A stretch of 44,285 bases of DNA from IMG/VR virus record IMGVR_UViG_3300031256_000003, positions 1 to 44,285 of that record; one strand, written 5' to 3'. The number at the start of each line of letters is the position of its first letter. The stretch's first letter is position 1. The notes below the pieces were generated by a model. It was not told the origin of the DNA, did no database searches, and worked only from the letters and a program-made list of their open reading frames with translations. Source of the DNA: a virus. Both the position numbers and the translations under genes were made by a program. Shown here piece by piece: positions 1,690 through 39,509 of the stretch.

Positions 1690-1743
1690 TTAGCACCTCA
1701 AAATTTATCTAGCTAAACCACTACAAACTTGACGGTAACCACG

Positions 1744-3012
1744 ATGCAAGTCGAGTCCATTCCAGTTGCGACCTTGGTCCCATACGCCCGCAATGCGCGA
1801 ACCCACTCCGCCGCGCAGGTGGCGCAGATCGCCGCAAGCATCCGCGAGTTCGGCTTTTGCAACCCGGTGTTGATCGACGAGCATGGTGGCATTATCGCGG
1901 GACACGGCCGCGTGCTGGCTGCGCGCAAGCTAGACCTCGACGCGGTTCCCTGCATCCGCCTTTCGCACCTCAGCGAGATTCAGCGCCGCGCCTACGCGCT
2001 TGCGGACAACAGACTTGCTGAGAATGCAGGATGGGATCTTGAGCAGCTAGGATTGGAGCTGTCTGGGCTGCGCGTCGACGGCTTTGATCTCGACTTGCTG
2101 GGATTCGATGAGGCGGAACTGGACGGACTGCTTGACGGAGACGTGCATAGCAGCGAAGGGTCAAGCGAAGATACAGAGCCGCAGATTGATCACGCCGATG
2201 AATTGCGAAAGAAGTGGGGCGTTGAAGCTGGTCAACTCTGGAAGCTTGGAGAACACCATCTGCTGTGTGGGGATTCGACCATGGCAGATGACGTGGCGCT
2301 GGCGTTGAGCGGAGACACCCCACATTTGATGGTTACAGATCCTCCATATGGGGTGGGATATAACGCAGACTGGCGGAACCATGCCTTTCGATCAGATGGC
2401 TCTCCCATCGCAGGTAGAGCCATCGGAAAAGTCGAGAATGACAACCAGGCGGATTGGCGAGAGGCATGGATTCTGTTTCCTGGAGACGTGGCCTATGTTT
2501 GGCATGCTCCGGGACCTCTGCAAGTTGCAGTGCTTCAAAGTTTGATAGCATGCGACTTTGAGGCTAGGAACCATATTATCTGGGCTAAAAACACGCTTGT
2601 AATAGGTCGCGGACATTACCACCATCAGCACGAGCCGTGTTGGTATGCCGTCAGAAAAGGGGCGACGGCGCACTGGAATGGGGATAGAAAACAAACAACA
2701 TTGTGGGAAATTGACAAGCCGCAAAAGAATGAAACGAGCCATAGCACACAAAAGCCACTTGAATGCATGGCGCGTCCAATCCGAAACAATAGTGCTCCTG
2801 GAGATTCCGTCTATGATCCATTCTCAGGCTCTGGCACGACGATCATTGCCGGAGAAAATCTAGGACGAAAGGTCCGCGCCATCGAAATATCCACGGCCTA
2901 TGTAGCCGTCGCCCTGCAGAGATGGGCCGATCACACCGGTAAAACGCCTAAGCTAGCCTCTCGATCCGCGCATTCAAGCCAACCGAAGAAAACCTCAAAG
3001 GCGAGCGTTTAA
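1744..3012 (+). CDS. ParB-domain / DNA adenine-or-cytosine (N6/N4) methyltransferase fusion
   Basis: 422 residues. The N-terminal part (about 1-90) is a ParB/Srx-type domain with LIDEHGGIIAGHGR (GHGR at 53-56). After an acidic linker comes an amino-methyltransferase with motif IV DPPYGVGY (about 199) and motif I DPFSGSGTT (about 358-366). Catalytic motif before the SAM-binding motif is the beta-class order. Such fusions are frequent in phages and are thought to protect virion DNA from host restriction. The ATG at 1744 follows a weak GGTAA; a TTG at 1729 is the alternative. No target-recognition specificity can be read. It lies immediately upstream of the small terminase. Confidence 0.9.
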   Translation: MQVESIPVATLVPYARNARTHSAAQVAQIAASIREFGFCNPVLIDEHGGIIAGHGRVLAARKLDLDAVPCIRLSHLSEIQRRAYALADNRLAENAGWDLEQLGLELSGLRVDGFDLDLLGFDEAELDGLLDGDVHSSEGSSEDTEPQIDHADELRKKWGVEAGQLWKLGEHHLLCGDSTMADDVALALSGDTPHLMVTDPPYGVGYNADWRNHAFRSDGSPIAGRAIGKVENDNQADWREAWILFPGDVAYVWHAPGPLQVAVLQSLIACDFEARNHIIWAKNTLVIGRGHYHHQHEPCWYAVRKGATAHWNGDRKQTTLWEIDKPQKNETSHSTQKPLECMARPIRNNSAPGDSVYDPFSGSGTTIIAGENLGRKVRAIEISTAYVAVALQRWADHTGKTPKLASRSAHSSQPKKTSKASV

Positions 3013-3406: not shown

Positions 3407-5234
3407 GCGCATCCGCAGCGGCCGCTATCGGTCGGCGTGGTCCCCGCCACCGATTGTCGCAGTGTCAGGGTGGGCCGGGAAATTTCGCTACTTATCGCCG
3501 GAAGCCAGCGCAGAACCCGGGCTATGGAACAATGCACGTGCGCCGCACCTCATCGAGCCGATGGACCGCCTCGGACCCTACAGCGAGACCGAGCGCGTGG
3601 TCTGCAAATTCAACTCTCAATCCGGGAAAACCGAAATCATCCTGAACTTCTGCGGCTACACTGTAGACTGCGACCCAGGGCCGATTCTATGCATTCAACC
3701 GAATGTCACCCCAATGGGTGAGGCATTCTCGAAAGACCGCGTGGCTACGATGTTTCGCGACTCGCCCACTCTAGCCGCGAAGATCGGACCAGTTAGAGCC
3801 AGGACATCGTCCAGTACGATCACGCACAAGGTGTTTGCCGGCGGCCATCTCACGATTGTGGGGGCGAACTCGCCAGCCGGTCTCGCCTCACGACCGATCC
3901 GGTATCTGGTCTGTGACGAGATAGATCGGTGGGAAGCGACCCGCGAAGGCGATCCGCTCACCCTTGCACGAAAACGCCAACAGACATTTCGCGCACGGCG
4001 TAGCGCGAAGGAATTGATCGTTTCGACGCCGACCTATGCGGATTTTGGAATCTCGGTCGAATATGCCAAGTGTGACACGCAAAAGCAGTGGGAATTGACC
4101 TGTTTGCACTGTGGTGAGTCACAATTCCCAGAATTGAAGCACTTTCAGCACGATGGAGACCTGCGCAAATTGCGCTATGTCTGCGGGCATTGCGGCGCAG
4201 AGCATGCGCTCGAAGATGAGGACACCGTCAAGGCGACTGGCCATTGGGTCACCGTGAAGCAAGGCGAGGAAAAGTCAGTCGGTTACTGGATGTCCCAATG
4301 GTCAAGTCCGTTCGCGCGCTGGGATGACACAGCGCAGGAATGGATTGATGCCGGAGATGATGCGCTGAAGCGCCAGGCAGTGACGAATACGGTGTTCGCG
4401 CTTCCCTGGGAGGGCGAGGGTGACCGGGTGGATGCGCATCTACTCGAAGCTCGCTGCGAGGACTGGGGAGATGCACTTCCAGACGGAGTGACTGACATCG
4501 CCATCGGCGTTGACCTGCAACAGGATAGGCTCGAGGCCGAGACGGTCGCCTGGGGGCCGGGCTTCGAATCGTGGTCACTGAGCTACGATATCCTGATTGT
4601 CGATCCGACGCGACCGGAAGAATGGACAGAGCTTGTCGATCTGCGTCAGCGCGAATGGACGCGCTTCGACGGCACCAAGCTCAAGGGAACCGCGCTCTGC
4701 ATCGACGCCGGAAACTGGAGCAAGCACGTGTACGACTGGGTCAAGGCGCAGCATGACCGCTGGGTGATCCCGATCAAGGGACTATCCGCTTTCGGTGCGG
4801 ACCCGCTGCATGGCTCCGAGCTGGATCGTCGTCGTCGCGCCATCAAGCGTATACACCAGGGCCGGCCTGTCGAGCCGCTTGGCGTCTCGCAGATCAAGCT
4901 CACCATCGACAAGCTGCTTTCGCAACCGAGCGATGCTCCGGGCTATTGCCATTTCCCTCTGGGCCGTGGACGAGACTATTTCGACCAGCTCACCGGAGAA
5001 CGCCTAACGCGCCATGGGAAGCGCGGCCGCAGGCCCCAGCTTGCATGGATGCAGATCCACGATCGGGTCGAGGCGCGCGACTGCCGCGTCTATGCTTACG
5101 CCGCACTTTTGCTGTCCGGCGCCACATTGGCTCGCAGGAAGCCGCTCCAGCAGACGACTGAAGCACTTCCATCGCGGGAGACGCCAGCGGTAACTCCGCC
5201 ACGTCGAACCCGCATTAGAGGCCTATTACGGTGA
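3387..5234 (+). CDS. Terminase large subunit (lambda gpA family)
   Basis: 615 residues from the ATG at 3387 (a TTG at 3378 is less likely). Residues 72-90 hold the deviant Walker A FNSQSGKTEIILNF, and 173-180 hold the Walker B YLVCDEID. A two-pair cysteine cluster (CLHCGE and CGHCGAE, about residues 239-270) is typical of gpA proteins. The nuclease half shows IAIGVDLQQDRLE and a later CIDAGNW. The protein would cut at the packaging site and drive ATP-powered DNA translocation into the prohead. The gpA family usually implies cos-type packaging, but I cannot place the cos site. Confidence 0.95.
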   Translation: MSHPALERIRSGRYRSAWSPPPIVAVSGWAGKFRYLSPEASAEPGLWNNARAPHLIEPMDRLGPYSETERVVCKFNSQSGKTEIILNFCGYTVDCDPGPILCIQPNVTPMGEAFSKDRVATMFRDSPTLAAKIGPVRARTSSSTITHKVFAGGHLTIVGANSPAGLASRPIRYLVCDEIDRWEATREGDPLTLARKRQQTFRARRSAKELIVSTPTYADFGISVEYAKCDTQKQWELTCLHCGESQFPELKHFQHDGDLRKLRYVCGHCGAEHALEDEDTVKATGHWVTVKQGEEKSVGYWMSQWSSPFARWDDTAQEWIDAGDDALKRQAVTNTVFALPWEGEGDRVDAHLLEARCEDWGDALPDGVTDIAIGVDLQQDRLEAETVAWGPGFESWSLSYDILIVDPTRPEEWTELVDLRQREWTRFDGTKLKGTALCIDAGNWSKHVYDWVKAQHDRWVIPIKGLSAFGADPLHGSELDRRRRAIKRIHQGRPVEPLGVSQIKLTIDKLLSQPSDAPGYCHFPLGRGRDYFDQLTGERLTRHGKRGRRPQLAWMQIHDRVEARDCRVYAYAALLLSGATLARRKPLQQTTEALPSRETPAVTPPRRTRIRGLLR

Positions 5235-5767: not shown

Positions 5768-6627
5768 ACTGGAAACGCCGCTGGGACCCATTCATCTGGC
5801 AGGACGGGAAAGACTGCCATTTGCTGTGTCTGGCAACCCGCCATGGCGCGGAAAATCGCGGACAAATCTGGTGGCAGGACGAGAACGTCATTTTGCACGC
5901 CGTCGGTCCGAGCTTCGACGATCTGACCGAGCGCGAGGTGGTCACGCCGCCAAAGGGCTTCATCTGGACCGCGCCGAGCCGGTTTCGTTGCCGCGATCGA
6001 GACTACCTGCTAGCAGGGATCAACTATGACGCAGGGCGGCCGAACCAACGGCTATGGATGGCCCCGCTCGATGATCCCGCCGAGGAGATCGGTCAGCTCC
6101 CGACCGCGGGCCATGAGATGGGCCGCCCGGGGAGCTTCGCCTGGCGCGACGCCAGTGTGATGCGGGTCGGGGAGCGGGAATGGCTGCTATTCGTGACCAC
6201 GGGAGGCTTCCGGTGGGGCGGTGCGCCCAACGTCATCCTCTTCCAGGCCGAGGACCCGCTCGGCAGATGGTGGTCCCGCGGTCCCGTGATCGACCCGACT
6301 CTTGCGGTTCTGTTCGCGGAGCTGGAGCGGCCCCAGATTCATCGCATCGGCGACCGTTGGGTCGCCTGGTGGTCTGTCTGGCCTAACCGCCACTTTTTCC
6401 GCGCGAAAAGCACCGTCCGGACCCATATCGCGATGTCCCCCTTCGATGAGCCGCTATTTTCACGCCCGATTGCACAACTGAACGGTCTCTATGGCCTGCA
6501 GATGCATGCCGATTGCTGGTGCGCCGCCTGGGAATGGACAGACATCGACCAGGCTGAAGGGGATGTTCGCATCTGGCGGGATGATGCCCTGTTGTGGCAC
6601 ATTCGGAAATGTATGGAGTCCGCCTGA
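5764..6627 (+). CDS. Five-bladed beta-propeller, GH43/GH32-like glycosidase-fold protein
   Basis: 287 residues, starting at the ATG overlapping the previous stop. The sequence alternates 'W-D-P-F-I-W ... hydrophobic strand' blocks: RWDPFIWQDGKDCHLLCLATRH at the N-terminus, then FIWTAPSRF, GRPGSFAWRDASVM with REWLLFVTT, and LERPQIHRIGDRWVAWWSVW. Repeated D-x-x-[VI] blades of this kind are typical of GH32/43/62/68 five-bladed propellers. Candidate acidic residues are D8 in the first blade and the D of RDASVM. It may cut or bind host polysaccharide or decorate the virion. A glycosidase-like gene between terminase and portal is unusual. Catalytic activity is not proven. Confidence 0.6.
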   Translation: MNWKRRWDPFIWQDGKDCHLLCLATRHGAENRGQIWWQDENVILHAVGPSFDDLTEREVVTPPKGFIWTAPSRFRCRDRDYLLAGINYDAGRPNQRLWMAPLDDPAEEIGQLPTAGHEMGRPGSFAWRDASVMRVGEREWLLFVTTGGFRWGGAPNVILFQAEDPLGRWWSRGPVIDPTLAVLFAELERPQIHRIGDRWVAWWSVWPNRHFFRAKSTVRTHIAMSPFDEPLFSRPIAQLNGLYGLQMHADCWCAAWEWTDIDQAEGDVRIWRDDALLWHIRKCMESA

Positions 6628-6875
6628 TGTCTTACGGCAAGGCTGATGTGCTTGTCACGCGCGATTTTACAAATTGCATGACGGTGCGTGAGCTAAAGGA
6701 AATGATCAAAGATTGGCCTGAAACGAATAATTTCGGGGAGGATTGCGAGGTTTGGATAGAGACCGGGTTTGCATCTAGCAGCCCGGTCATAAGAGCCGGC
6801 GCGCTGAACCTTCGGGAAGATGATGATGGAAATCCGAGTGCAGATTTCCTGCTCGAGAGCGGGCACCGAGCATAA
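6627..6875 (+). CDS. Hypothetical protein
   Basis: 82 residues; the ATG overlaps the upstream stop (TGATG). It contains MTVRELKEMIKDWPETNNFGEDCEVWIETG, a helix followed by an acidic strand. That resembles short phage proteins with a 'V.EL...L...p.d.eV.i' pattern of unknown role. Translational coupling to the propeller gene suggests the two are co-expressed. No function is proposed. Confidence 0.6.
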   Translation: MSYGKADVLVTRDFTNCMTVRELKEMIKDWPETNNFGEDCEVWIETGFASSSPVIRAGALNLREDDDGNPSADFLLESGHRA

Positions 6876-6930
6876 CAAAGTGACATTTTTGCCCTAGTTT
6901 GTCCCTCCGGCGCGGCCGAAAATCCGCGCC

Positions 6931-7158
6931 ATGACCTTCGCGGAAGCGACCGCATACCTCTCAACCCTCGAGGCCGCTATGCTTAGCGGCGAGCTCTCCG
7001 TCCGCCTCGCTGACGGTCGAGCGATCACCTACCAGTCCCTGCTTGATATGGAACAGGCGGCTGCCAGGCTGCGGCGCGACATCGCGCGCGCCAACGGCAC
7101 CCCATCGACCCTCACCGCCCGCTGGAACCCCAGCGCCACCAGCGGGACGAGCTATTGA
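6931..7158 (+). CDS. Head-tail joining protein gpW-like
   Basis: 75 residues with the gpW pattern: MTFAEATAYLSTLEAAMLSG (helix), a short beta hairpin (VRLADGRAITYQS), then a second helix (LLDMEQAAARLRRDIARA). It sits directly before the portal, as lambda gpW sits before gpB, and its stop overlaps the portal TTG start. In the virion it would bind below the portal and allow tail attachment. Only a weak ribosome-binding site is visible. The 55-base gap upstream shows no convincing promoter. Confidence 0.85.
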   Translation: MTFAEATAYLSTLEAAMLSGELSVRLADGRAITYQSLLDMEQAAARLRRDIARANGTPSTLTARWNPSATSGTSY

Positions 7159-8714
7159 ACGCCGACGTGATCTCTGCTACGGACGACGCGACGGACGAGC
7201 TCCAGCGCAACCAGCGTGATCGGCTATTGAAGCCAGACCGCGTCCTGCCGTTCAACGTTCGCCAGCTCCCAACGGCGGCCTATCAAGCTGGCGAAACGAC
7301 CCAGTATCACAAGCACCCGGGCGCTGTCGGATCCGGAGACCGCTCCGTTGCGACGGCCTATTACAGGCTGCGGGACTGGTCGAGGTGGCTGGACGAGAAT
7401 CTCGACCTAGTCACAGGCGCCTTCGACAAGCTGGTCAATTTCATCGTCGGCGGCGGCATCACCATCGAGCCTACGGTCCGCGACCGCAAAGGCCGCCTGT
7501 TGCCAAAGGTCAACGACCAGATCCGACGCGCCATCGTCGACGAGAGCTATCCGGACTGCTGGAGCCGCGATTGCAACGTCACCGGTGAGTACACCCGCGG
7601 GGAACAGGAGCGGATCGCGTGCAGGTCCTGGCTGCGGGATGGCGAGATCCTCGGCCGCAAGGTGCCGCGCCAGATCGCCCCCGACCGCATCCCTCACCAG
7701 GTTCAGCTTATCGAGGCGGACTATCTCGCCTTCGAGATGTTGGAATCTAGGCGCGACGGGACGGCCATCATCCACGGGGTCGAGAAGGACGAATGGGGCC
7801 GCCCAGTCGCTTATCACATTTATCGGCAGAACCCTGTCATCGTCTCGGATTTCCGCTGGGCGACGAGCCTCGATGCGGTGCGCGTCTCCGCCGACGAGAT
7901 CAGCCACCTGAAGTTTCTGCGGAGGGCCAACCAGACCCGCGGGGTGCCGATCTGCCACGCGACGATTTTGCGCCTCGATGACATCGCCGAATATGAGGAT
8001 GCCCACCGGGCCGGCGCCCGGGCGGCCGCCCAGCTCCTCGGCTCGATCAAGCGCAACCCAGACATGCTTGGGCTGAATGGCAGCCCATATTCAGCGGCCG
8101 ACGACAATCGTAAATGGGACCTGGATGATGCAACGTTCCTGTCGGACCTACTGCCCGGCGAGGAGGCGACATTCTACAAGCCGGAGACCCCGAACCCGGA
8201 CGCGAGCCTGTTCCTAGACGATCAGTTGCGCCGCGCCGCATCTGGGTTCGGACTTGGTTACAGCACTTTTGCCGGGAAATACGACAAGGCTTTCAGCGCC
8301 GCGCGCCAGGAGCAGTCCGAGAACTGGCCGAACATCGAACAACTGCGGGGCCAATTCGTCTCGGATTTTGTCCGGCCTGTCGAATACGAACCTGCTCTGC
8401 GCGCCGCTATCCTCCTGGGCCGCGTGCGGATCCCCCGCGAGGCGGACCCGGACACCATCTTCACTGCCGACATCACCGGGCCGCCACGTCCGACCATCGA
8501 CGACTTGAAGCAGGTCCAGGCCGATACCGGGATGGTGGATGCGAGGCTCGATTCTCGCGTTGGCCGCATCCGCGAGCGCGGTCGGGATCCGACGCGGGTG
8601 GATGCCGAGATCAAGAATGATCAGCTGGCGGCGCAGCCGGCGCCGGCTGCGGGCCAGAATCCGCCGCCCCCTGGACCCCACGCTCCTGACAATTCAGCAG
8701 GCAAACAGCCATGA
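7155..8714 (+). CDS. Portal protein (lambda gpB family)
   Basis: 519 residues, close to the 533 of lambda gpB. The start is a TTG overlapping the gpW stop (TTGA). Family features include TAYYRLRDWSRWLDENLDLVTGAFDKLVNFIVGGGI, the IACRSWLRDGEILGR block, and HLKFLRRANQTRGVPICHATILRLDDIAEYEDA, followed by SYSTFAGKYDKAFSAARQEQSENW-type residues near 370. It forms the dodecameric portal vertex, DNA entry channel and docking site for terminase and connectors. The Pro/Gln-rich C-terminus ends in the ATG of the capsid gene (ATGA overlap). Confidence 0.95.
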   Translation: MNADVISATDDATDELQRNQRDRLLKPDRVLPFNVRQLPTAAYQAGETTQYHKHPGAVGSGDRSVATAYYRLRDWSRWLDENLDLVTGAFDKLVNFIVGGGITIEPTVRDRKGRLLPKVNDQIRRAIVDESYPDCWSRDCNVTGEYTRGEQERIACRSWLRDGEILGRKVPRQIAPDRIPHQVQLIEADYLAFEMLESRRDGTAIIHGVEKDEWGRPVAYHIYRQNPVIVSDFRWATSLDAVRVSADEISHLKFLRRANQTRGVPICHATILRLDDIAEYEDAHRAGARAAAQLLGSIKRNPDMLGLNGSPYSAADDNRKWDLDDATFLSDLLPGEEATFYKPETPNPDASLFLDDQLRRAASGFGLGYSTFAGKYDKAFSAARQEQSENWPNIEQLRGQFVSDFVRPVEYEPALRAAILLGRVRIPREADPDTIFTADITGPPRPTIDDLKQVQADTGMVDARLDSRVGRIRERGRDPTRVDAEIKNDQLAAQPAPAAGQNPPPPGPHAPDNSAGKQP

Positions 8715-10936
8715 CACAAACGACCAAGGGCTTCATCGTCTCACGCGCGACGGCGCCGAACACCCCGATCGTCTACGTCTATGGCGGCATTGGGGTGCCG
8801 GACTTCAACGGCTATGTTGTCGATCCGCAGGAGCTTCAGGCAGAGCTTGCGCAGATTACCGCACCAGAGTTCGAGATCCGGATGTCATCCGTCGGAGGGG
8901 CGGTCGATGTCGCCAATCAGATTTTCAACATGCTGCAGCAGCATCCCTCGCGGATCACCATCACCGTGGATGGCTATGCGCACTCTGCCGCTACCTTGAT
9001 CCTCCAGGCCGCAGATGTACGCCGCGCTTCCGCCGTGAGCGAATTGATGATTCATGCTCCGCGTGGCGGAGGCCCAACGCTGACCGCCTCCGAGCATCGT
9101 GACTCCGCGGATGCCTTGGATTCCTACGCAACAGTGATGATGCTGGTTTATGGACGGCACGGGATCCCGGAGGCCACCATCCGCGGCTGGATGGATGACA
9201 AAGACCACTATTTCACCGCGCAGCAGGCACTTGATGCTGGGCTCATCGACGAAATCGAGCCTATGCGAGCGCTGTCCTCTGCACCCCAGGAATATCTCGC
9301 TGTTGCCATGTCGCACAGCAGACCAAATTCACAACCGGCGGCCTCCGCCAAACCCCTGGAGAACGAAATGCCTGAAAACATTGGCACTCCGGCGGCCCCT
9401 GAGCAGCATCAGGCCGCCAATCCGAATCCGCAGCCTCCCCAAGAGCCTGGCCGCGTCGATGTCCTCGGCGCCGTGGCGAGGCTGAACGCTGACACCCGCC
9501 GCGGGGTCGAGCAGGGCGCCGCTGCCGAGCGCAAGCGACAGCGCGAGATCCGCGACCTATTCTCCGAGCAGCCGAATGACCGGCGCGAGTTCGCAACCGT
9601 GCTTAACCAATGCCTGGACAACCCGAGCTGTGACATCAACATGGCCCGGCAGGCGCTGATCGACCTCTACAGCTCCGGGATCGTGCCGATCATCGATCCG
9701 GTCTCCCAGGAGCAGGATCAGCACGGCGGACCCTGGGCGCAGACACAGGCCCCGACCGCCCGCCTCGGCGCCAAGCAGCAGACAGCTGCGCGGCCGCAGC
9801 CTCGCTTCCGCCCTGGGATGGACGCGGGCGAAAAGTTCCGCGAGGGTGCCATTGCCGCGCTATCCGTGCGCACCGCTCTGGTGACTGACAAGGAGTTCGT
9901 CAGGGCCCAGGCCGATAACCCCTTCATGTCGTATTCGCTGGTGGACCTCTGCAAGGAGCAGCTGCACGCCCTTGGGATGTCCGTCGGCGGCTCCAGGGAG
10001 GCTGTCGTGAAGCGGGCCATCTATGCCTCGGCCCCTGGCTACGGCTCAGACCATCTCCCCTACATCCTGGAGAACGTCGCCGAGAAGGCGGTCATGGCCG
10101 GCTATGAGGCGGCCGAGGAGACATGGCAAGACTGGGTCAAGATTGGAACGCTCAGCGATTACCGCGAGGCGAGCCGCGTCAATCTCAGCTTGTTCAACGC
10201 CTTGGACACCATGCTGGAATTCCAGCCGTTCACGTCCGGAAAATTCAAGGATGTGAAGGAAACCATCCAGGCGTACCTGCGCGGCAAGCGCTTTTCGATC
10301 ACGCTGCAGGCGATGGTCAACGATGACATCGGCATGCTGACCGAGTTGCCGATGCAGTTCGGCGAGGCGGCCAACCGGACCGTCGGCGATGCAGTGGCCG
10401 CGCTGCTTACCAGCGGCACGACGGCGACCATGAACGAGGACTCCGTCGCGCTATTCGACGCCTCGAACCATAGCAACTTTGTGGCATCCGGAAGCGGTGC
10501 GGCACCATCGACCGCTACCGTGAATACGGCATACGGGGCGATGGCCGTGCAGACGGACCCCAACGGCCAGCCGCTCGGAATTCGTCCGCGTTATATGGTC
10601 CACCCGGCGGCCCTGCGAATGACCGTCCAGGCACTGCTGAGCTCTGTCGAGATCCGCAATACCACAGGCTCGACTATCTATCCGACGAACAACCCGGTTC
10701 TCTCGCTTAATCTCGTGCCAATCGAGGAATACCGCCTTGATGGCAGCAATACCACTGGCTGGTACCTGGCTGCGGCCCGCCGCACGATCGAAGTGGCCTT
10801 CGTGGGTGGGCAGTCCACACCGACCGTGGACCGGGTGGCGACCAGCGACGTTCCAGGCATCTCCTGGGATATCAGCCTTCCGTTCGGCGCGGCCGTGTTG
10901 GACTGGCGTACCCTCTACTACAACTACGGCGCGTAA
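8711..10936 (+). CDS. Fused ClpP-type prohead protease and major capsid protein
   Basis: 741 residues. Residues 1 to about 210 form a ClpP-like serine protease: SSVGGAVDVANQIFNML, the nucleophile region DGYAHSAATL (S92) and LMIHAPRGG (H115). A charged linker with a coiled segment (about 225-330: AAERKRQREIRDLF) may act as scaffold. The C-terminal 400 residues (from about GMDAGEKFREGAIAAL) are an HK97-fold major capsid protein, ending in FGAAVLDWRTLYYNYGA. The protease probably releases itself and the scaffold during maturation. No separate scaffold or protease gene is present, which fits the fusion. Confidence 0.92.
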   Translation: MTQTTKGFIVSRATAPNTPIVYVYGGIGVPDFNGYVVDPQELQAELAQITAPEFEIRMSSVGGAVDVANQIFNMLQQHPSRITITVDGYAHSAATLILQAADVRRASAVSELMIHAPRGGGPTLTASEHRDSADALDSYATVMMLVYGRHGIPEATIRGWMDDKDHYFTAQQALDAGLIDEIEPMRALSSAPQEYLAVAMSHSRPNSQPAASAKPLENEMPENIGTPAAPEQHQAANPNPQPPQEPGRVDVLGAVARLNADTRRGVEQGAAAERKRQREIRDLFSEQPNDRREFATVLNQCLDNPSCDINMARQALIDLYSSGIVPIIDPVSQEQDQHGGPWAQTQAPTARLGAKQQTAARPQPRFRPGMDAGEKFREGAIAALSVRTALVTDKEFVRAQADNPFMSYSLVDLCKEQLHALGMSVGGSREAVVKRAIYASAPGYGSDHLPYILENVAEKAVMAGYEAAEETWQDWVKIGTLSDYREASRVNLSLFNALDTMLEFQPFTSGKFKDVKETIQAYLRGKRFSITLQAMVNDDIGMLTELPMQFGEAANRTVGDAVAALLTSGTTATMNEDSVALFDASNHSNFVASGSGAAPSTATVNTAYGAMAVQTDPNGQPLGIRPRYMVHPAALRMTVQALLSSVEIRNTTGSTIYPTNNPVLSLNLVPIEEYRLDGSNTTGWYLAAARRTIEVAFVGGQSTPTVDRVATSDVPGISWDISLPFGAAVLDWRTLYYNYGA

Positions 10937-32960: not shown

Positions 32961-34247
32961 TTATGTTCTCAGAACACGTTCGATGTCAGACCGCTCGGCG
33001 TCGGTGAGATTCGACGTGCGCATCAGGTCGCGAACCTCATCACGCGCCTCATCGGTGTCGGCGAACCGCGCTTCCTCCAGCAGGGCCGCGTAGCTGAAGC
33101 CGGAACCACCAGATTCTGTCTGCGGCGGATCTCGCGGCTCGGTCTCTGCGGGCTCTGAATCCGTCTGCCATGGCGCCGTCGATTTCTGCTCGTCCAGGTC
33201 CGCGATGCGGCGCGCCATGTCTGCTTTGGCCTGGCCCTCCAGCCGCTGCAAGAGATCTGGATCAACTCCCCGCTTTTGGCGCCAGGTACCATCAGCGTTC
33301 CATGTGCGGTTAGCGCTATGCACTTCCGGAATCCACGGGATATCGCGTGGATCGACCAGGATGCCGAGTGCATTCGGCTCTGGTCTCGGGCCATCTGGCT
33401 CCGCTCCTTGCGTGGTTGTTGGTTTCCTCTCGTTCTCTTGATCCCGCTCTTGTTCCGACGATTCAGGCGGGTCGGTCGCTTCCTTCGCCCGTCGCTGTTT
33501 AGATTCCGCCATCAGCTTGGCGTCCACTCCTTCGCCAGTGTCCGGTGTGACGTTCACCTCGTAGCGGCCGAAGTCAGCCTCATCCTCGTCCGCGATGACC
33601 TGTGCCAGCTCATCGCTCTGGGGCCAGTATTTTGCGTTGCGCCGAATGACAGTCTTCCATGCCATGGCCTCAAAGTCGGTTACCCATGGCCCAGAGTCTT
33701 TGGCGGGTGAGCGCTGGCGGATCGCCTCGACCTGCTCGACGGTCATGGGTCCGGCGCCGAATGATCGCGTGCCATCCCGGAAGGTCGCCACAGCGTAATA
33801 GGCGAGAGCTTCTCCGCGGCCGCTGAGGGCAGGCTTGTGGATCAGGTTCGGATTTAGCCCAAGCTCCCAGTCCCATTTGTCGTTCTCGCGGATCGTAGCC
33901 GGGAACACATCCAGGATCTCGCCGCTCTGGCGCATCAGGGAAATGATGCCCTGATACATGGGGACGAACTGCGCGTCCATCGTTCCCGTCTTTCTGTTCC
34001 GGAATGGCACCAATGCGCCCATGCGTCCATCGGGCATCAGCCCGCGCTCTGCCGCCTTCATGGTGCCTGCCAAGACGCTGTTCGGAGTGCATTTGGCTAG
34101 CGCCGGGTTGACTTGGAGCTGGGTGAAGAGTGCGCGGGCGAAACGCTCCGGCGAGATATGCTTCGGCAGCGCGAGCTTGATCTGCGCTTGCTGCTTCAAA
34201 ATCAAGTTGCGTAGGTTTGCGACGTTGGTTTTCTGTAAGTCATTCAT
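32961..34247 (-). CDS. recT: RecT-family single-strand annealing protein with C-terminal extension
   Basis: 428 residues. The first about 250 are RecT-like: LPKHISPERFARALFTQLQVNPALAKCTPNSVLAGTMKAAERGLMPDG, then MYQGIISLMRQSGEI and AMAWKTVIRRNAKYWPQSDEL. A charged Pro/Glu linker is followed by a small phage domain (DPRDIPWIPEVHSANRTWNADGTWRQKRGVD) and an acidic tail that could recruit host SSB or partners. With the exonuclease at 35290-36204 it forms a RecE/RecT-type pair for end resection and annealing in replication and recombination. GAGGA lies six bases before the ATG, and a conserved leader hairpin precedes it. Confidence 0.93.
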   Translation of the reverse strand: MNDLQKTNVANLRNLILKQQAQIKLALPKHISPERFARALFTQLQVNPALAKCTPNSVLAGTMKAAERGLMPDGRMGALVPFRNRKTGTMDAQFVPMYQGIISLMRQSGEILDVFPATIRENDKWDWELGLNPNLIHKPALSGRGEALAYYAVATFRDGTRSFGAGPMTVEQVEAIRQRSPAKDSGPWVTDFEAMAWKTVIRRNAKYWPQSDELAQVIADEDEADFGRYEVNVTPDTGEGVDAKLMAESKQRRAKEATDPPESSEQERDQENERKPTTTQGAEPDGPRPEPNALGILVDPRDIPWIPEVHSANRTWNADGTWRQKRGVDPDLLQRLEGQAKADMARRIADLDEQKSTAPWQTDSEPAETEPRDPPQTESGGSGFSYAALLEEARFADTDEARDEVRDLMRTSNLTDAERSDIERVLRT

Positions 34248-35289: not shown

Positions 35290-36204
35290 TCACAGCGCCC
35301 ATCGGGGCAGGCTGATGGACTCGATTTCATCCGGATATCCAGGCCAGTATCCAGTGGCGTATGCCTCGGCAAATCGCTGGAATACCCGCTCGCACAAATG
35401 CCAGCCGCGGGCGATCGCCTCTGGATCAAACCCCATCACGCGCACGCCAAACGGACGCTCAGACTCGACGACGATATGGCGGAATGCTCGTGGTGACCCA
35501 TTGGCCTTGGCCGCCCACTCATAGAGAGCCGCCTGGATGTGGTACTGGTAGGTCCCGCACTTGCGCGCATAGGCGTCATAGCCGGCCGAATCGGTGGTCT
35601 TGATATCGCCGGTCAGATCCATCTTGTTCGACCAGATATCAGCCCTGGTCTTGACTGGGCAGCATGTCTCTTCGTGCCGCGCGAGAACCGTCACTTCGGG
35701 CGAGAAGTCTTGGAGCATGATCGAGGCGATTGGATGGCTGAGAACCGCGTCACGCATCGCCATCGCTTGTGCATGGGTGTCATGATCTATTATGTACCGC
35801 CCGGAATCCTCGACCATTTCCATAAGCGCCGTCATCTGCTCATCTAGGAACTTGCCGAGCGCTTTCCCATCGAAATGGGGCACGTCGAGCTCCAGCGCCT
35901 CGGCCAGGCTACGGACATAGAGGTCTTTCCCGGCGTTCGAGTTTTTCGCTGCGCCACTGGTCAGCACGATGTAGCGCTTGGCCTCTGGCTCGAGGAGCAT
36001 CTCATGGAGGAGCGTCCCGCGTCGCTTCGCCTTGCTCTCCTTGTCAATCTTCTCGCGGACATGCAGCATGGATTCCGCTAGCGCGATCTTGATTGCCGAT
36101 GAGCTGGCCGCCGGGATTTCAAGATAGGTCTGGAATGGGACCCCCAGCATGATGCTCGGGAAGGCGAAGGCATCCGTCTGCTCGATGAGGGCTGCTTCGC
36201 TCAT
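35290..36204 (-). CDS. RecE/exonuclease VIII-like PD-(D/E)XK nuclease
   Basis: 304 residues from the ATG at 36204, whose ATGA overlaps the upstream stop; the longer frame to 36399 is an overlap artefact. It carries the RecB-type nuclease motifs in order: RRGTLLHEML with H67, E170, D189 in RADIW, D200-x-K202 in TGDIKTTD, and QAALY (about 224-228). This is the exonuclease partner of the RecT-like protein and would resect double-stranded DNA ends to give a 3' overhang for annealing. Confidence 0.88.
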   Translation of the reverse strand: MSEAALIEQTDAFAFPSIMLGVPFQTYLEIPAASSSAIKIALAESMLHVREKIDKESKAKRRGTLLHEMLLEPEAKRYIVLTSGAAKNSNAGKDLYVRSLAEALELDVPHFDGKALGKFLDEQMTALMEMVEDSGRYIIDHDTHAQAMAMRDAVLSHPIASIMLQDFSPEVTVLARHEETCCPVKTRADIWSNKMDLTGDIKTTDSAGYDAYARKCGTYQYHIQAALYEWAAKANGSPRAFRHIVVESERPFGVRVMGFDPEAIARGWHLCERVFQRFAEAYATGYWPGYPDEIESISLPRWAL

Positions 36205-36449
36205 AGCTGCGGGCCCTCCAGACGATCCAGCAGCCTGCTGGCCACGTAGCGCCGCGCGGCAACGAGATCCGGATCTCCGCGCTGGTCTGGCTCGGCGAGG
36301 GCCTTCAGATAGCCAAGTCGGTCCTTTTCCTGTAGCGCGCGTCGCGCTATGAGCTCGGCCACAGTCGGGACCTCGTGGCGATCCATATCGATCTCGCAAA
36401 GAAACCGCCAGACCGGATCGAGCTTGGTCTTAGGTTGTTCAATATCCAT
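36201..36449 (-). CDS. Small hypothetical protein coupled to the exonuclease
   Basis: 82 residues from the ATG at 36449 with AGAGGA upstream. A longer frame to 36542 reads into the repeat array and is rejected. Sequence: PVWRFLCEIDMDRHEVPTVAELIARRALQEKDRLGYLKALAEPD, mostly helical. It is the first gene after array 1 in the direction of transcription and is translationally coupled to the exonuclease. No family recognised. Confidence 0.64.
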   Translation of the reverse strand: MDIEQPKTKLDPVWRFLCEIDMDRHEVPTVAELIARRALQEKDRLGYLKALAEPDQRGDPDLVAARRYVASRLLDRLEGPQL

Positions 36450-36486
36450 GGTCACGGTCCTCTGTTTGCTGTCGTTTTGTCTTGCG

Positions 36487-36771
36487 TGGCTAATCGCACG
36501 GCTCGGTCGGTTCTCACCTACCCTACGGCTTATCGCACCCAATCAACGGTTCTCACTTGACCCTTGGCTCATCGCACAGCCTGAGCGGTTCTCACTTTAT
36601 GAACGGCTCATCGCATAGCGCTCTCGGTTCTCACCCCTGGTTCGTCTCATCGCACATCTGGGACGGTTCTCACCCGTCGATCGGCTCATCGCACTTCAGT
36701 CACGGTTCTCATAGTTACAACGGCTCATCGCACCCGCGTTACGGTTCTCATGCCTCATGCGGCTCGTCACT
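36487..36771 (-). repeat. TIGR-like array 1: seven 39-nt units with two conserved motifs and two variable spacers
   Basis: Read on the minus strand, two motifs alternate. The 12-nt motif TGCGATGAGCCG (usually preceded by G) occurs eight times, at plus coordinates 36487, 36526, 36565, 36604, 36643, 36682, 36721 and 36760. GTGAGAACCG occurs seven times, at 36508, 36547, 36586, 36625, 36664, 36703 and 36742. The period is exactly 39 nt. Variable segments are always 8 nt on one side and 9 nt on the other, and all seven pairs differ. The end copies are degenerate, and the copy at 36760 overlaps the stop codon of the Nop-like gene. No terminator is seen in the 37 bases beyond the distal end. Confidence 0.93.
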
Positions 36772-37840
36772 ATGCGGCCTTCTCGTCCTCGAACAGGACG
36801 TATCTATAGGGCGGCGTGATGTAATGCGCATGTCCCTTGATCGCAGTCGCAAACGGATTCGGCGGCTTTTGCCCATTCTCGACCTCAAACCATAACTCAT
36901 GCAGATGGCTCAAGAAGAGCTTCACCGTCGCCCGCCTGGCCATCGCATCAATGTGCCCATCTGGAAGCTTGCCCATCGCCAATACGTCCTTTTGCGCGTG
37001 GTTTGGGAACTTCTGTAGCTTTGCCTCCGCCAGCTTGGCCCGGCCCCCGGTGTCGTTTCGTACCACCTCCGCAGCCTTGCGCTGCCGGTAGAACTTCGCG
37101 TAGAACGCATCTTCGCGACCACCTAGCTTCACCATCTGGTCGCCGATCTTCCAGCACATCGTCTTCAGTGGCCGATTGAACGGTATTCTCGCCAAGCTTT
37201 TGATCGCGCTGGTCTTTGTCAGCGCCTTGGTTTCACCGGTCTTGAAATCGGTTGTTGCGTCGCGTAGCACGGTCTCCGGGTCACGTCCGAGAATGATGCT
37301 GAGCTGGCGCACCCGGAATTCCACGTCTCCAGTGCGCTCCTTCCAAAGCTCCTTCAGGGTGTCTGTCGACTCCCACCGCTGGCTCGGATCGAGGCCGGCA
37401 AAGCGCCACCAATGGCCGACCGTTGGAGGAACGGGTCGATAACCCAGATGCGCAAGTATGCCGGCGGACAAGACCGGGCCGATCCCAGGTACGGCCGAGA
37501 ACCACGGCCACATGGGATGAGTTTGCGCGAACGCCTGGAGGAAGCCAGCGGAGTTGGCCTCCATGGTCTCCGCCTGGCGAAGCATGTAGTCGACATATTC
37601 CGTGCTGGCTCCGCTATCGCTTCCGCGTTGCACAGCGCCGCCCTGATTGGCGAGCCGCTTGCGCATTTCCTGCATGGTGTAGTAGAGGTCCACAAGCACA
37701 CGTGCCTCGGCTGCAGTACATTTGCCGGGAGGTCCTTCGAGTGATGCTCCGGCCGCGCGCGCCTGTTCGCCAGCTCGGATTGCCGCGATCGCGTCCTTTG
37801 AAAGCTTGATGATTGGCGTTAAGCTAATAGGGTCTTTCAT
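36770..37840 (-). CDS. Tas-like protein: Nop / IS110 C-terminal (Tnp_20)-like RNA-guided DNA-binding protein
   Basis: 356 residues from the ATG at 37840; the frame opens earlier but that part overlaps another gene. Two helices (about 44-66 and 80-108) lead into the core FSAVPGIGPVLSAGILAHLGY...HWWRFAGLDPSQRW (about 114-156). This is the helix-hairpin-helix 'PGiG...A..l.a..g......F....Gl.P' pattern shared by IS110/IS116/IS902 transposase C-termini and Nop domains. The C-terminal half is helical and basic, ending with HIDAMARRATVKLFLSHLHELW. No DEDD catalytic domain, HNH or RuvC motif is present, so it looks like a stand-alone binding protein. It lies between two TIGR-like arrays, which is the decisive context. 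The ribosome-binding site is poor. Confidence 0.85.
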   Translation of the reverse strand: MKDPISLTPIIKLSKDAIAAIRAGEQARAAGASLEGPPGKCTAAEARVLVDLYYTMQEMRKRLANQGGAVQRGSDSGASTEYVDYMLRQAETMEANSAGFLQAFAQTHPMWPWFSAVPGIGPVLSAGILAHLGYRPVPPTVGHWWRFAGLDPSQRWESTDTLKELWKERTGDVEFRVRQLSIILGRDPETVLRDATTDFKTGETKALTKTSAIKSLARIPFNRPLKTMCWKIGDQMVKLGGREDAFYAKFYRQRKAAEVVRNDTGGRAKLAEAKLQKFPNHAQKDVLAMGKLPDGHIDAMARRATVKLFLSHLHELWFEVENGQKPPNPFATAIKGHAHYITPPYRYVLFEDEKAA

Positions 37841-37850
37841 GGTTCTGCTT

Positions 37851-37870
37851 CGCCCCGGGCTACCGGGGCG
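37851..37870 (-). other. Hairpin before the Tas-like gene
   Basis: Perfect 8-bp stem CGCCCCGG / CCGGGGCG around a 4-base loop, ten bases upstream of the Tas-like ATG on the minus strand. It may restrict ribosome access or separate the transcript segments. Read on the plus strand it is followed by CCTCTTTT, a weak terminator-like tail with no rightward gene to serve. Confidence 0.6.
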
Positions 37871-37890
37871 CCTCTTTTCGTGTTTCCAGT

Positions 37891-38175
37891 TCAGCCAACT
37901 GCCTTGGCCGGGATCTCTTCCTGCTGCACTGCTTCCAGTTGCGGCGATCCTATCGGCATCATAATGGCCCGGTTCTTGGCTATGTCCGGGGCCTGGATCA
38001 TGAGTTTCTTGAAGCCCACGTTCATCGTGGCCCAAGCCCGCGCCTCCTTTAGGAAGCCCTGCACCTGCCGGTTTTTCTTCTCAATGTCCAAATCATCGCG
38101 CTCATCGATCTGCTCGACCTTATCGATGCAATAATCGACAACGCCATCCACACTGCGCTCAATCTTCTTGCTCAT
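37891..38175 (-). CDS. Small helical protein between array 2 and the Tas-like gene
   Basis: 94 residues, with AGAGGA nine bases upstream of the ATG. It starts MSKKIERSVDGVVDYCIDKVEQIDERDDLDIEKKNRQVQGFLKEARAWATMN, is charged and helical, then IAKNRAIMMPIGSPQLEA. I do not recognise it. Because it lies between array 2 and the Tas-like gene in one transcript, it may be an accessory factor of that system or an ordinary early gene. Confidence 0.66.
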   Translation of the reverse strand: MSKKIERSVDGVVDYCIDKVEQIDERDDLDIEKKNRQVQGFLKEARAWATMNVGFKKLMIQAPDIAKNRAIMMPIGSPQLEAVQQEEIPAKAVG

Positions 38176-38195
38176 CTTGTCTTCCTCTTAGTTAT

Positions 38196-38210
38196 GCCGG
38201 CCCTGCCGGC
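38196..38210 (-). other. Small hairpin at the distal end of array 2
   Basis: GCCGGC / GCCGGC around CCT forms a 6-bp stem immediately after the last degenerate repeat of array 2 in the direction of transcription and just before the ribosome-binding site of the next gene. It could mark the end of the array RNA. Confidence 0.5.
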
Positions 38211-38216
38211 TGTTAA

Positions 38217-38735
38217 TGAAAATTCGCACGATTGACGCGATTCTCACCTAGTTCAAGGCTCGTCGCATGATCCAATTTGTTCTCACAGTAGCTTCGGCTC
38301 ATCGCACCCCGAGGTCGGTTCTCACAACCCTCACGGCTCGTCGCATTCGCCTGGCGGTTCTCACCGGCTGAACGGCTCATCGCGCACCCACTACGGCTCT
38401 CGCTGGAAGTTCGGCTAGTCTCATTCCGTGCTCGGTTCTCGCGCCACTGATGGATCATCGCACCTTTCGAACAGTTCTCTCTCGCCATTCGGCTCATCGC
38501 ACTTGCGCTTCGGTTCTCACCACTGGGTCGGCTCATCGCACCCACGTTACGGTTCTCACGGCAGCTTCGGCTCATCGCACCATGCGAACGGTTCTCACTC
38601 TCCAGACGGCTCATCGCACCGACTTTACGATTCCCACTATTTTTACGGCTCATCGCATACCGTGCTCGGTTCTCATGCCGCTGATGGCTCATCGCATCGC
38701 GGGGACGGTTCTCACGGGCTTTTCGGCTCATCTAC
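38217..38735 (-). repeat. TIGR-like array 2: thirteen 39-nt units with two conserved motifs and two variable spacers
   Basis: This array has the same two motifs, period and spacer lengths as array 1. On the minus strand TGCGATGAGCCG-type copies start (plus coordinates) at 38256, 38295 and so on every 39 nt to 38724, with a badly degenerate one at 38217. GTGAGAACCG-type copies lie at 38238 to 38706. Copies from 38490 to 38715 are nearly perfect, whereas those from 38217 to 38481 carry several substitutions, so the array decays toward its 3' end as transcribed. The last copy (38724-38735) overlaps the stop of the upstream microprotein. Because 39 is 13 codons, an apparent 172-codon reading frame with a 13-residue repeat runs through it; I regard that as a by-product. 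Confidence 0.93.
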
Positions 38736-38844
38736 CAAAAAAAATAGCCAAATTGATTGCCACGATCGCACCCAGGACTGCGCCCACGATAAGGAGGGCG
38801 AACCAAGCGGGGGGCATGGGCTCACGGAGCGGTTCTCTGCTCAT
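38728..38844 (-). CDS. 38-residue membrane microprotein
   Basis: The ATG at 38844 overlaps the stop of the preceding gene (ATGA), and its own TGA lies inside the first repeat of array 2. After MSREPLREPMPP comes one membrane helix, AWFALLIVGAVLGAIVAINLAIFFG. A run of eight T lies near its 3' end. It is the second gene of the leftward operon. Function unknown. Confidence 0.62.
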   Translation of the reverse strand: MSREPLREPMPPAWFALLIVGAVLGAIVAINLAIFFGR

Positions 38845-39224: not shown

Positions 39225-39509
39225 ATGTCAAAAGCCGCACCACGCGGAAGGCGCAACCCGATCGTGCGGGCCTGCCAGGTGCTGGACTGCACCCAGGCGG
39301 AGCTGGCCCGCCAGCTGCGGTGCACCCGGGCGGCCGTGAGCAAGGCGAAGGGGCTCGGTGAAGTGTCCTGGTCGATGGCGCTGGACCTCGAGCGCATCAC
39401 GGGCGGGAAGATCACCCGCTATGAAGCCTGTCCCAAGACCTACGGTCCTGCGCCGGCCGCGCCTCCGCCGCCCGAGGACGAGAAGCAGGTATCCGCGAAC
39501 GCCGCCTGA
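39225..39509 (+). CDS. Cro/YdaS-like helix-turn-helix regulator
   Basis: 94 residues, with AGGAGA five bases upstream. The HTH is at about residues 19-45 (LDCTQAELARQLRCTRAAVSKAKGLGEVSW), followed by MALDLERITGGKITRYEACP, the typical YdaS/Cro continuation 'A..iE..TgGkvtr...rP'. The Pro-rich tail is variable. It would repress its own promoter and perhaps the leftward one. No CI-type repressor with a dimerisation/cleavage domain exists opposite it. Confidence 0.85.
   Translation: MSKAAPRGRRNPIVRACQVLDCTQAELARQLRCTRAAVSKAKGLGEVSWSMALDLERITGGKITRYEACPKTYGPAPAAPPPPEDEKQVSANAA

Follow-up and report, generated by a model that had tools for sequence, protein, structure and literature searches.

The 44,285-nt virus record IMGVR_UViG_3300031256_000003 from IMG/VR (positions 1 to 44,285, the whole stretch analysed and hereafter the window) carries, judged from its sequence, a TIGR-TasA system: two arrays of paired short spacers and tasA, a gene for a solo Nop-domain protein without a nuclease. 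The system is of an already known kind and not novel as such. It is probably an accessory cassette of a temperate phage that serves in RNA-guided, cutting-free silencing of competing mobile elements. When Faure et al. first reported the family in 2025 (PMC12045711), they stated that the natural targets and role of TIGR systems were unknown, above all for those with the nuclease-less TasA. A concrete, testable candidate for a natural target can now be offered, namely a satellite-like island in the same cell as a related TIGR-TasA prophage. If the reading is true, phages use programmable RNA-guided silencing against satellites, parallel to phage-borne CRISPR. Family identity, array architecture, the lack of detectable self-targets, modularity and the candidate targets in the related lysogen are direct results of the analysis.

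The tasA product has 356 residues and contains VPGIGPVLSAGI, as the original prediction, made from the letters alone, had noticed. It scores 155.5 bits with the NCBIfam model TIGR_Tas (NF052498.1, cutoff 100) and matches phrog_4285, annotated as 'transposase', at 2.6e-33. Searched against PDB, a profile built from six relatives retrieved TasR (9mty) at 7.7e-14 and TasH at 3.7e-4. The structure prediction proposed as a check yielded an AlphaFold2 model (59-sequence alignment) with a predicted local distance difference test (pLDDT) of 90.7 and a predicted template modelling score (pTM) of 0.88. TasR 9mty and TasH occupied ranks 1-8 of the Foldseek comparison of this model with PDB, followed by IS110 recombinases, at modest TM-scores of 0.37-0.49 by query length. 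The assignment to TIGR-Tas is thus upheld by both the family model and the PDB matches. No nuclease domain family was found in Pfam, NCBIfam or PHROGs beyond Tas and IS110-type models, which agrees with the predicted nuclease-less member and makes the protein a TasA as Faure et al. use the name; nuclease-less TasA is the commonest effector in their study (PMC12045711). Only about 42 residues lie upstream of the aligned Nop region. The residues invariant in the family are kept, and an insert of about 60 residues (about residues 159-217) is missing from many relatives.

The arrays are encoded on the minus strand and bracket the tasA region. Their start-to-start spacing is exactly 39 nt, and they comprise 7 + 13 = 20 units. 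Each unit reads, on the minus strand, edge repeat TGCGATGAGCCG (12 nt), spacer A (9 nt), loop repeat TGAGAACCG (9 nt) and spacer B (9 nt). The anticipated pattern of two motifs alternating with two variable segments therefore holds in both arrays. The claim that the protein lies directly between them is correct on the downstream side only, where the first, 5'-truncated edge (AGTGACGAGCCG, at 36771) overlaps the tasA stop codon; on the upstream side a 94-amino-acid (aa) open reading frame (ORF) intervenes. The upstream array begins at 38735 with the truncated edge GTAGATGAGCCG and closes with the truncated edge TGCGAATTTTCA at 38228-38217. Truncated edges at array ends are a mark of TIGR-Tas loci, as are an adjoining array of two alternating 8-12-nt repeats with spacers of about 9 nt between them, and covariation of edge and loop in box D (UG) and in a CCA-like box C, as described by Faure et al. 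(PMC12045711); all of these were found here. Both boxes are shared by the two repeats: box D occurs in 17/20 edges and 17/20 loops, box C (as CCG) in 15/20 edges and 16/20 loops. Nearly all edge and loop columns are 80-100% conserved over the 20 units, and the spacers vary freely. The ninth spacer base is a purine, mostly G, so the freely variable part of a spacer is 8 nt. A column-conservation scan found 24/39 conserved columns in the window versus 6 in a base-shuffled copy, and a repeat search returned two families, D1 and D2, with 13-19 in-register copies; the periodicity is therefore not due to chance. A few units have degenerate boxes, e.g. those at 38423 and 38306. The pair TCAGCGGCA/AGCACGGTA and its near-duplicate TCAGTGGCG/AGCACGGAA, both with an edge ending in CCA, indicate a unit duplication followed by drift. 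Neither a clear promoter flanking the arrays nor a convincing terminator on the minus strand was found. CRISPR-Cas was rejected since two short repeats alternate, in place of a single 25-36-nt repeat with similar-sized spacers; PADLOC gave no cas match for tas, the 94-aa ORF, an 82-aa ORF and three further ORFs. An Rfam search returned no match.

How the system would work can be outlined from the published relatives. Faure et al. (PMC12045711) reported Tas-dependent processing, a dimer holding one tigRNA, pairing with both DNA strands and, for TasR, a DNA bend of nearly 180 degrees. For the window phage, the steps from expression and processing to DNA binding and silencing are inferred as follows. 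The arrays and tasA would be co-transcribed, and cleavage at the edge repeats would release about 20 tigRNAs of about 36-39 nt. Each tigRNA would presumably sit on a dimer of TasA, in which one protomer takes the box C/D of the edge and the other that of the loop. The complex would then find double-stranded DNA in which spacer A pairs with one strand and spacer B with the adjacent stretch of the other. Without a nuclease it would bind and bend the site and thereby block transcription or replication. Its likeliest clients would be competing mobile elements of the same host, such as satellites, other prophages and superinfecting phages, and not the phage's own genome.

For target searches, a site was defined as spacer A with the reverse complement of spacer B immediately after it (convergent, gap 0, with gaps of 1-2 tolerated), a geometry derived from the published 8-nt 3' overhang and C-5 rule (PMC12045711). 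The sequenced Acidobacteriaceae strain KBS 96 harbours a TIGR-TasA prophage (L089) with a TasA 33% identical to that of the window and five complete A-loop-B units. One of its guides, TAAAAGCA/TTCGATTC, has one exact match (16/16, convergent, gap 0) in the 6.7-Mb genome, where 0.0035 exact matches are expected for one guide and 0.016 for all five; the other four guides have no exact match there. The matching site, TAAAAGCAGAATCGAA, covers codons ~9-14 of a gene for an 86-aa excisionase/regulator-like helix-turn-helix (HTH) protein (L134:9743-10003). This gene belongs to an integrated island, and a second guide, CTCCAGGT/ACTTACAA, matches the neighbouring replication-type gene of the same island at 14/16 in the same geometry. 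Both mismatches lie at the outer edge, which is the mismatch-tolerant end in TasR (PMC12045711), and one of them would be a G-U wobble. When 2388 spacer pairs of other arrays were compared with the island, no pair matched at 0-1 mismatch and 15 (0.63%) did at 2. The empirical probability that at least 2 of 5 guides match the island is about 4e-4, a figure obtained for one lysogen and for an island singled out after the first match.

The island (L134:1952-12130; G049, KBS 96, ~6.32-6.33 Mb) consists of 10,152 bp integrated at a tRNA-Glu gene with a 26-bp direct attachment (att) repeat. It encodes an integrase, a repressor, the excisionase-like protein, replication proteins, TerS, a protease and an HK97 capsid; neither a large terminase nor a portal was found among the ORFs scanned. 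It resembles a capsid-carrying phage satellite and may be of the capsid-forming phage-inducible chromosomal island (cfPICI) type. Compared with the TIGR prophage, its capsid is 68%, its protease 48% and part of its replication protein 58% identical. The prophage DNA examined has at least 4 mismatches to both island-matching guides, so the guides would be able to tell the rival from self. The KBS 96 copy thus seems to be directed against a competing virus-like parasite of the same cell, which would be a first hint at a TIGR-Tas role. It favours competing mobile elements as targets among the phage, plasmid and host sequences that the original prediction had suggested for binding or silencing. 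We put about even chances on the wider proposition that temperate-phage TasA cassettes are cutting-free weapons against satellites and prophages, with KBS 96 as the first natural target pair and the window as a version with 39-nt units.

Several observations weigh against silencing of competing elements as the function of the window's cassette. Evidence for natural targets is confined to a single lysogen, whose TasA is 33% identical to that of the window and whose units are 36 nt long, and only 2/5 of its guides match. When all arrays were compared with 36 contigs bearing satellite-related capsids, no excess was seen, so the KBS 96 result does not extend to these contigs. The window's 20 tigRNAs matched nothing above shuffled controls in the sister phage L109 and six terminase relatives. 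An IMG/VR scan with its duplicated guide gave 9 matches, about the chance level, with no second guide. Stem-loop guides of the mycobacteriophages described below did not exceed shuffled guides on six cluster A genomes, and one such guide had no excess targets across the phage collection. Published TasR in E. coli stopped neither phage nor conjugation and drove only plasmid loss (PMC12045711). The most widely shared guide of the L052 group had 13 matches in IMG/VR, a chance-like number, and matches of further guides stayed at chance level. Another Acidobacteriae genome that encodes TasA, G275, contains no more than one or two units, too few for a guide set.

The main competitor of mobile-element silencing is an action of TIGR-TasA on host chromosomal genes, as counter-defence or lysogenic control. 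Both counter-defence and gene regulation were listed as possibilities by Faure et al. (PMC12045711), binding of host DNA would not be lethal with a protein lacking a nuclease, and the window's guides could match genes of its host. In KBS 96, the only host genome tested, the sole exact match nevertheless lies inside an integrated element and not in a core gene, and we regard this explanation as unlikely, albeit less so than those that follow. Guides that regulate the phage's own genes in a lysogeny/lytic switch, or that help its own integrase, would fit the position of the cassette next to repressor and recombination genes; help for the integrase was suggested by Faure et al. from the sharp DNA bend of TasR (PMC12045711). 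Against the window's own genome, though, the best guide match has 3 mismatches of 18, the same as for shuffled pairs, and the guides of ~66 relatives match their own flanks (0-2 mismatches of 16) no more often than shuffled ones. Self-regulation is for this reason improbable, and largely refuted except if many fewer paired bases suffice than has been published.

Equally improbable is a decaying, non-functional remnant: the degenerate boxes of a few units and the lack of a clear promoter or terminator at the arrays would suit decay, yet the 356-aa ORF is intact, its invariant residues are kept and the repeats are conserved over 20 units while the spacers vary. Two further explanations have next to no weight. 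An IS110-type transposon with a bridge RNA is hinted at by weak matches to Transposase_20 (E 0.012, below cutoff) and to the equivalog NF033542, which at 20.1 bits falls far short of its cutoff of 140; the N-terminal recombinase (DEDD catalytic) domain is missing, which refutes an IS110 element, the arrays have two repeats and not one bridge RNA, and Tas outranks IS110 structurally. Similarly, the arrays could encode a protein of 13-residue repeats, since a 39-nt unit is a whole number of codons and the upstream array has one frame without stops over 172 aa. The same frame contains three stops in the downstream array, however, all three frames of which are interrupted, as is every frame in most relatives' arrays, and some relatives have 35-nt units; coding repeats were consequently rejected. 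Silencing of competing mobile elements remains the preferred explanation.

About 80 relatives were fetched by protein, of which about 70 have a periodic 35/36/39-nt array that was detected independently of the protein; 67 arrays with about 1480 units were parsed. Most relatives have 36-nt units and three have 35 nt. Units of 39 nt are found only in the window and in L009, its closest relative at 58% identity. In L009 (~6100-10700; IMGVR 3300034196_000113), a very long and more degenerate 39-nt array flanks tasA on both sides, with far more units than in the window. Some related phages (L052/57/58/59; L032/33/35) have common spacers in rearranged order. In most comparisons within these groups, two spacers that flank a loop stay together more often than two that flank an edge, as expected if A-loop-B is the working unit and exchange takes place at the edges; L049/L051 lack this contrast. 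The arrays thus seem to be reshuffled largely by whole A-loop-B units. Recent unit duplications occur among the parsed arrays, one of them in the window. The otherwise reshuffled arrays of L052, L057, L058 and L059 all contain one identical unit, GGAGTATC/AGCACGCG with a variant loop of its own, GAGGGCACCA; one of these arrays has two copies, as if the unit were spreading among arrays. A scan of IMG/VR with the array motif gave one isolated chance match (L008).

The window encodes terminase, portal, protease, tape measure, RecT, exonuclease and replication proteins and hence represents a lambda-like tailed phage; it is temperate and siphovirus-like. As predicted, the locus lies in a lambda-like early/recombination region with RecT and an exonuclease VIII-type gene. 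The coordinates of all features and guides are listed in the table. Sister phage L109, whose recT shows 88% DNA identity, is collinear with the window to either side of the cassette but lacks exactly this segment, having ~490 bp with an unrelated ~100-aa ORF in its place; therefore, tasA travels together with the arrays and the 94-aa ORF as a single cassette. The slot is a variable early accessory site between repressor and recombination genes. The 94-aa ORF belongs to no family in Pfam, PHROGs or NCBIfam and has no convincing homologue near other tas genes.

Table. Features of the TIGR-TasA locus and its surroundings in the window. For guides, the coordinate is the plus-strand position at which the unit has its 5' end, and the details are spacer A/spacer B.
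Feature	Coordinates	Strand	Details
RecT single-strand annealing protein	32961..34247	-	Pfam PF03837 3.4e-39
Exonuclease VIII-type (DUF3799, PD-(D/E)XK) recombination exonuclease	35290..36204 (end approximate)	-	Pfam PF12684 5.5e-16, phrog_412 1.3e-56
Whole exchangeable TIGR cassette (array, 94-aa ORF, tasA, array)	36444..38837	-	blastn/tblastx of window vs L109; ~2.4 kb
Downstream TIGR array	36487..36771	-	7 dual-spacer units of 39 nt (36499-36771) and terminal edge repeat to 36487
tasA, 356-aa Nop-domain (IS110-C-terminal-like) protein	36770..37840	-	NCBIfam, PHROGs, AF2 + Foldseek
94-aa ORF between upstream array and tasA	37891..38175	-	within exchangeable cassette; missing from sister phage L109
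Upstream TIGR array	38217..38735	-	13 dual-spacer units (38229-38735), 39 nt each
Unit TCAGCGGCA/AGCACGGTA	38658..38696	-	near-duplicate of unit 38424-38462 (TCAGTGGCG/AGCACGGAA)
Divergent repressor-like HTH gene, opposite side of cassette	39225..39509	+	phrog_35 9e-7
Guide, downstream array	36771	-	CATGAGGCA/TAACGCGGG
Guide, downstream array	36732	-	TTGTAACTA/TGACTGAAG
Guide, downstream array	36693	-	ATCGACGGG/TCCCAGATG
Guide, downstream array	36654	-	AACCAGGGG/AGAGCGCTA
Guide, downstream array	36615	-	TTCATAAAG/CTCAGGCTG
Guide, downstream array	36576	-	AGGGTCAAG/TTGATTGGG
Guide, downstream array	36537	-	TAGGGTAGG/ACCGAGCCG
Guide, upstream array	38735	-	AAAAGCCCG/TCCCCGCGA
Guide, upstream array	38696	-	TCAGCGGCA/AGCACGGTA
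Guide, upstream array	38657	-	TAAAAATAG/TAAAGTCGG
Guide, upstream array	38618	-	TCTGGAGAG/TTCGCATGG
Guide, upstream array	38579	-	AAGCTGCCG/TAACGTGGG
Guide, upstream array	38540	-	ACCCAGTGG/AAGCGCAAG
Guide, upstream array	38501	-	AATGGCGAG/TTCGAAAGG
Guide, upstream array	38462	-	TCAGTGGCG/AGCACGGAA
Guide, upstream array	38423	-	AACTTCCAG/TAGTGGGTG
Guide, upstream array	38384	-	TTCAGCCGG/CCAGGCGAA
Guide, upstream array	38345	-	TGAGGGTTG/ACCTCGGGG
Guide, upstream array	38306	-	AAGCTACTG/ATTGGATCA
Guide, upstream array	38267	-	TGAACTAGG/CGTCAATCG

Members of the same tas family are found in culturable phages of M. smegmatis and are open to direct testing there. Cluster A mycobacteriophages carry a TIGR_Tas gene (L111:2523-2856, Pinto; L116-L119, HarryOW, Kanely, Bircsak and Scowl) that is annotated as 'transposase' or hypothetical and scores 232 bits with TIGR_Tas in Pinto; a tblastn search matched 71 Mycobacterium phage records. 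About five stem-loop guide units precede tas; their stems are nearly identical and their dual spacers hypervariable. The gene occupies the same slot as in the window, between immunity genes and exonuclease, an interval that contains other small ORFs in Bxb1. Unannotated TIGR loci were also seen in two isolated phages, namely in Gordonia phage Morrissey (L113:2600-2870 and 3700-3880), with stem-loop units, and in Microcystis phage Mvi-JY20 (L112:3600-3960), with a dual-repeat array and a terminator.

TasA and ParB were reported as operon neighbours by Faure et al. (PMC12045711). On a 53-kb contig of the G275 genome (L174:1490-2300; G275:C2), a TasA frame that is open for 517 aa runs, as judged by eye, into a ParB-like domain and is an apparent natural TasA-ParB fusion. 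The window itself encodes a ParB-like N-terminal domain fused to a DNA methyltransferase (1729-3012, plus strand), directly upstream of the large terminase.

The closest known counterpart of the locus is TIGR-TasA as described by Faure et al. (PMC12045711), e.g. FpTasA of Flavonifractor plautii. Both have a solo, phage-borne Nop-domain protein, dual-repeat arrays on either side of the gene whose units each hold two ~8-9-nt spacers, truncated end edges, and a box D (UG) and box C (CC) common to edge and loop. The window differs in its 39-nt unit with a 12-nt edge (usually 36 nt), in a box C that reads CCG and not CCA, in the ~60-residue insert of its 356-aa TasA and in the lack of a clear terminator after the arrays. 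TIGR-TasR (PDB 9mty) and TIGR-TasH (PDB 9w04, 21kl; Salicola phage CGphi29) have the Nop fold and a box C/D-type guide in common with it, but carry RuvC or HNH nuclease domains that its TasA lacks. The RNA-guided recombinases IS110/IS621 share the C-terminal RNA-binding (Nop-like) domain and the PGIG helix-hairpin-helix motif, whereas the window's locus has no DEDD catalytic domain, no bridge RNA and no transposon ends. Faure et al. (PMC12045711) cite type IV and V-M CRISPR systems, which may work like the window's locus in that they silence competing mobile elements by RNA guidance and without cleavage; the likeness would be one of analogy only, as their proteins are unrelated and their long spacers pair with a single strand.

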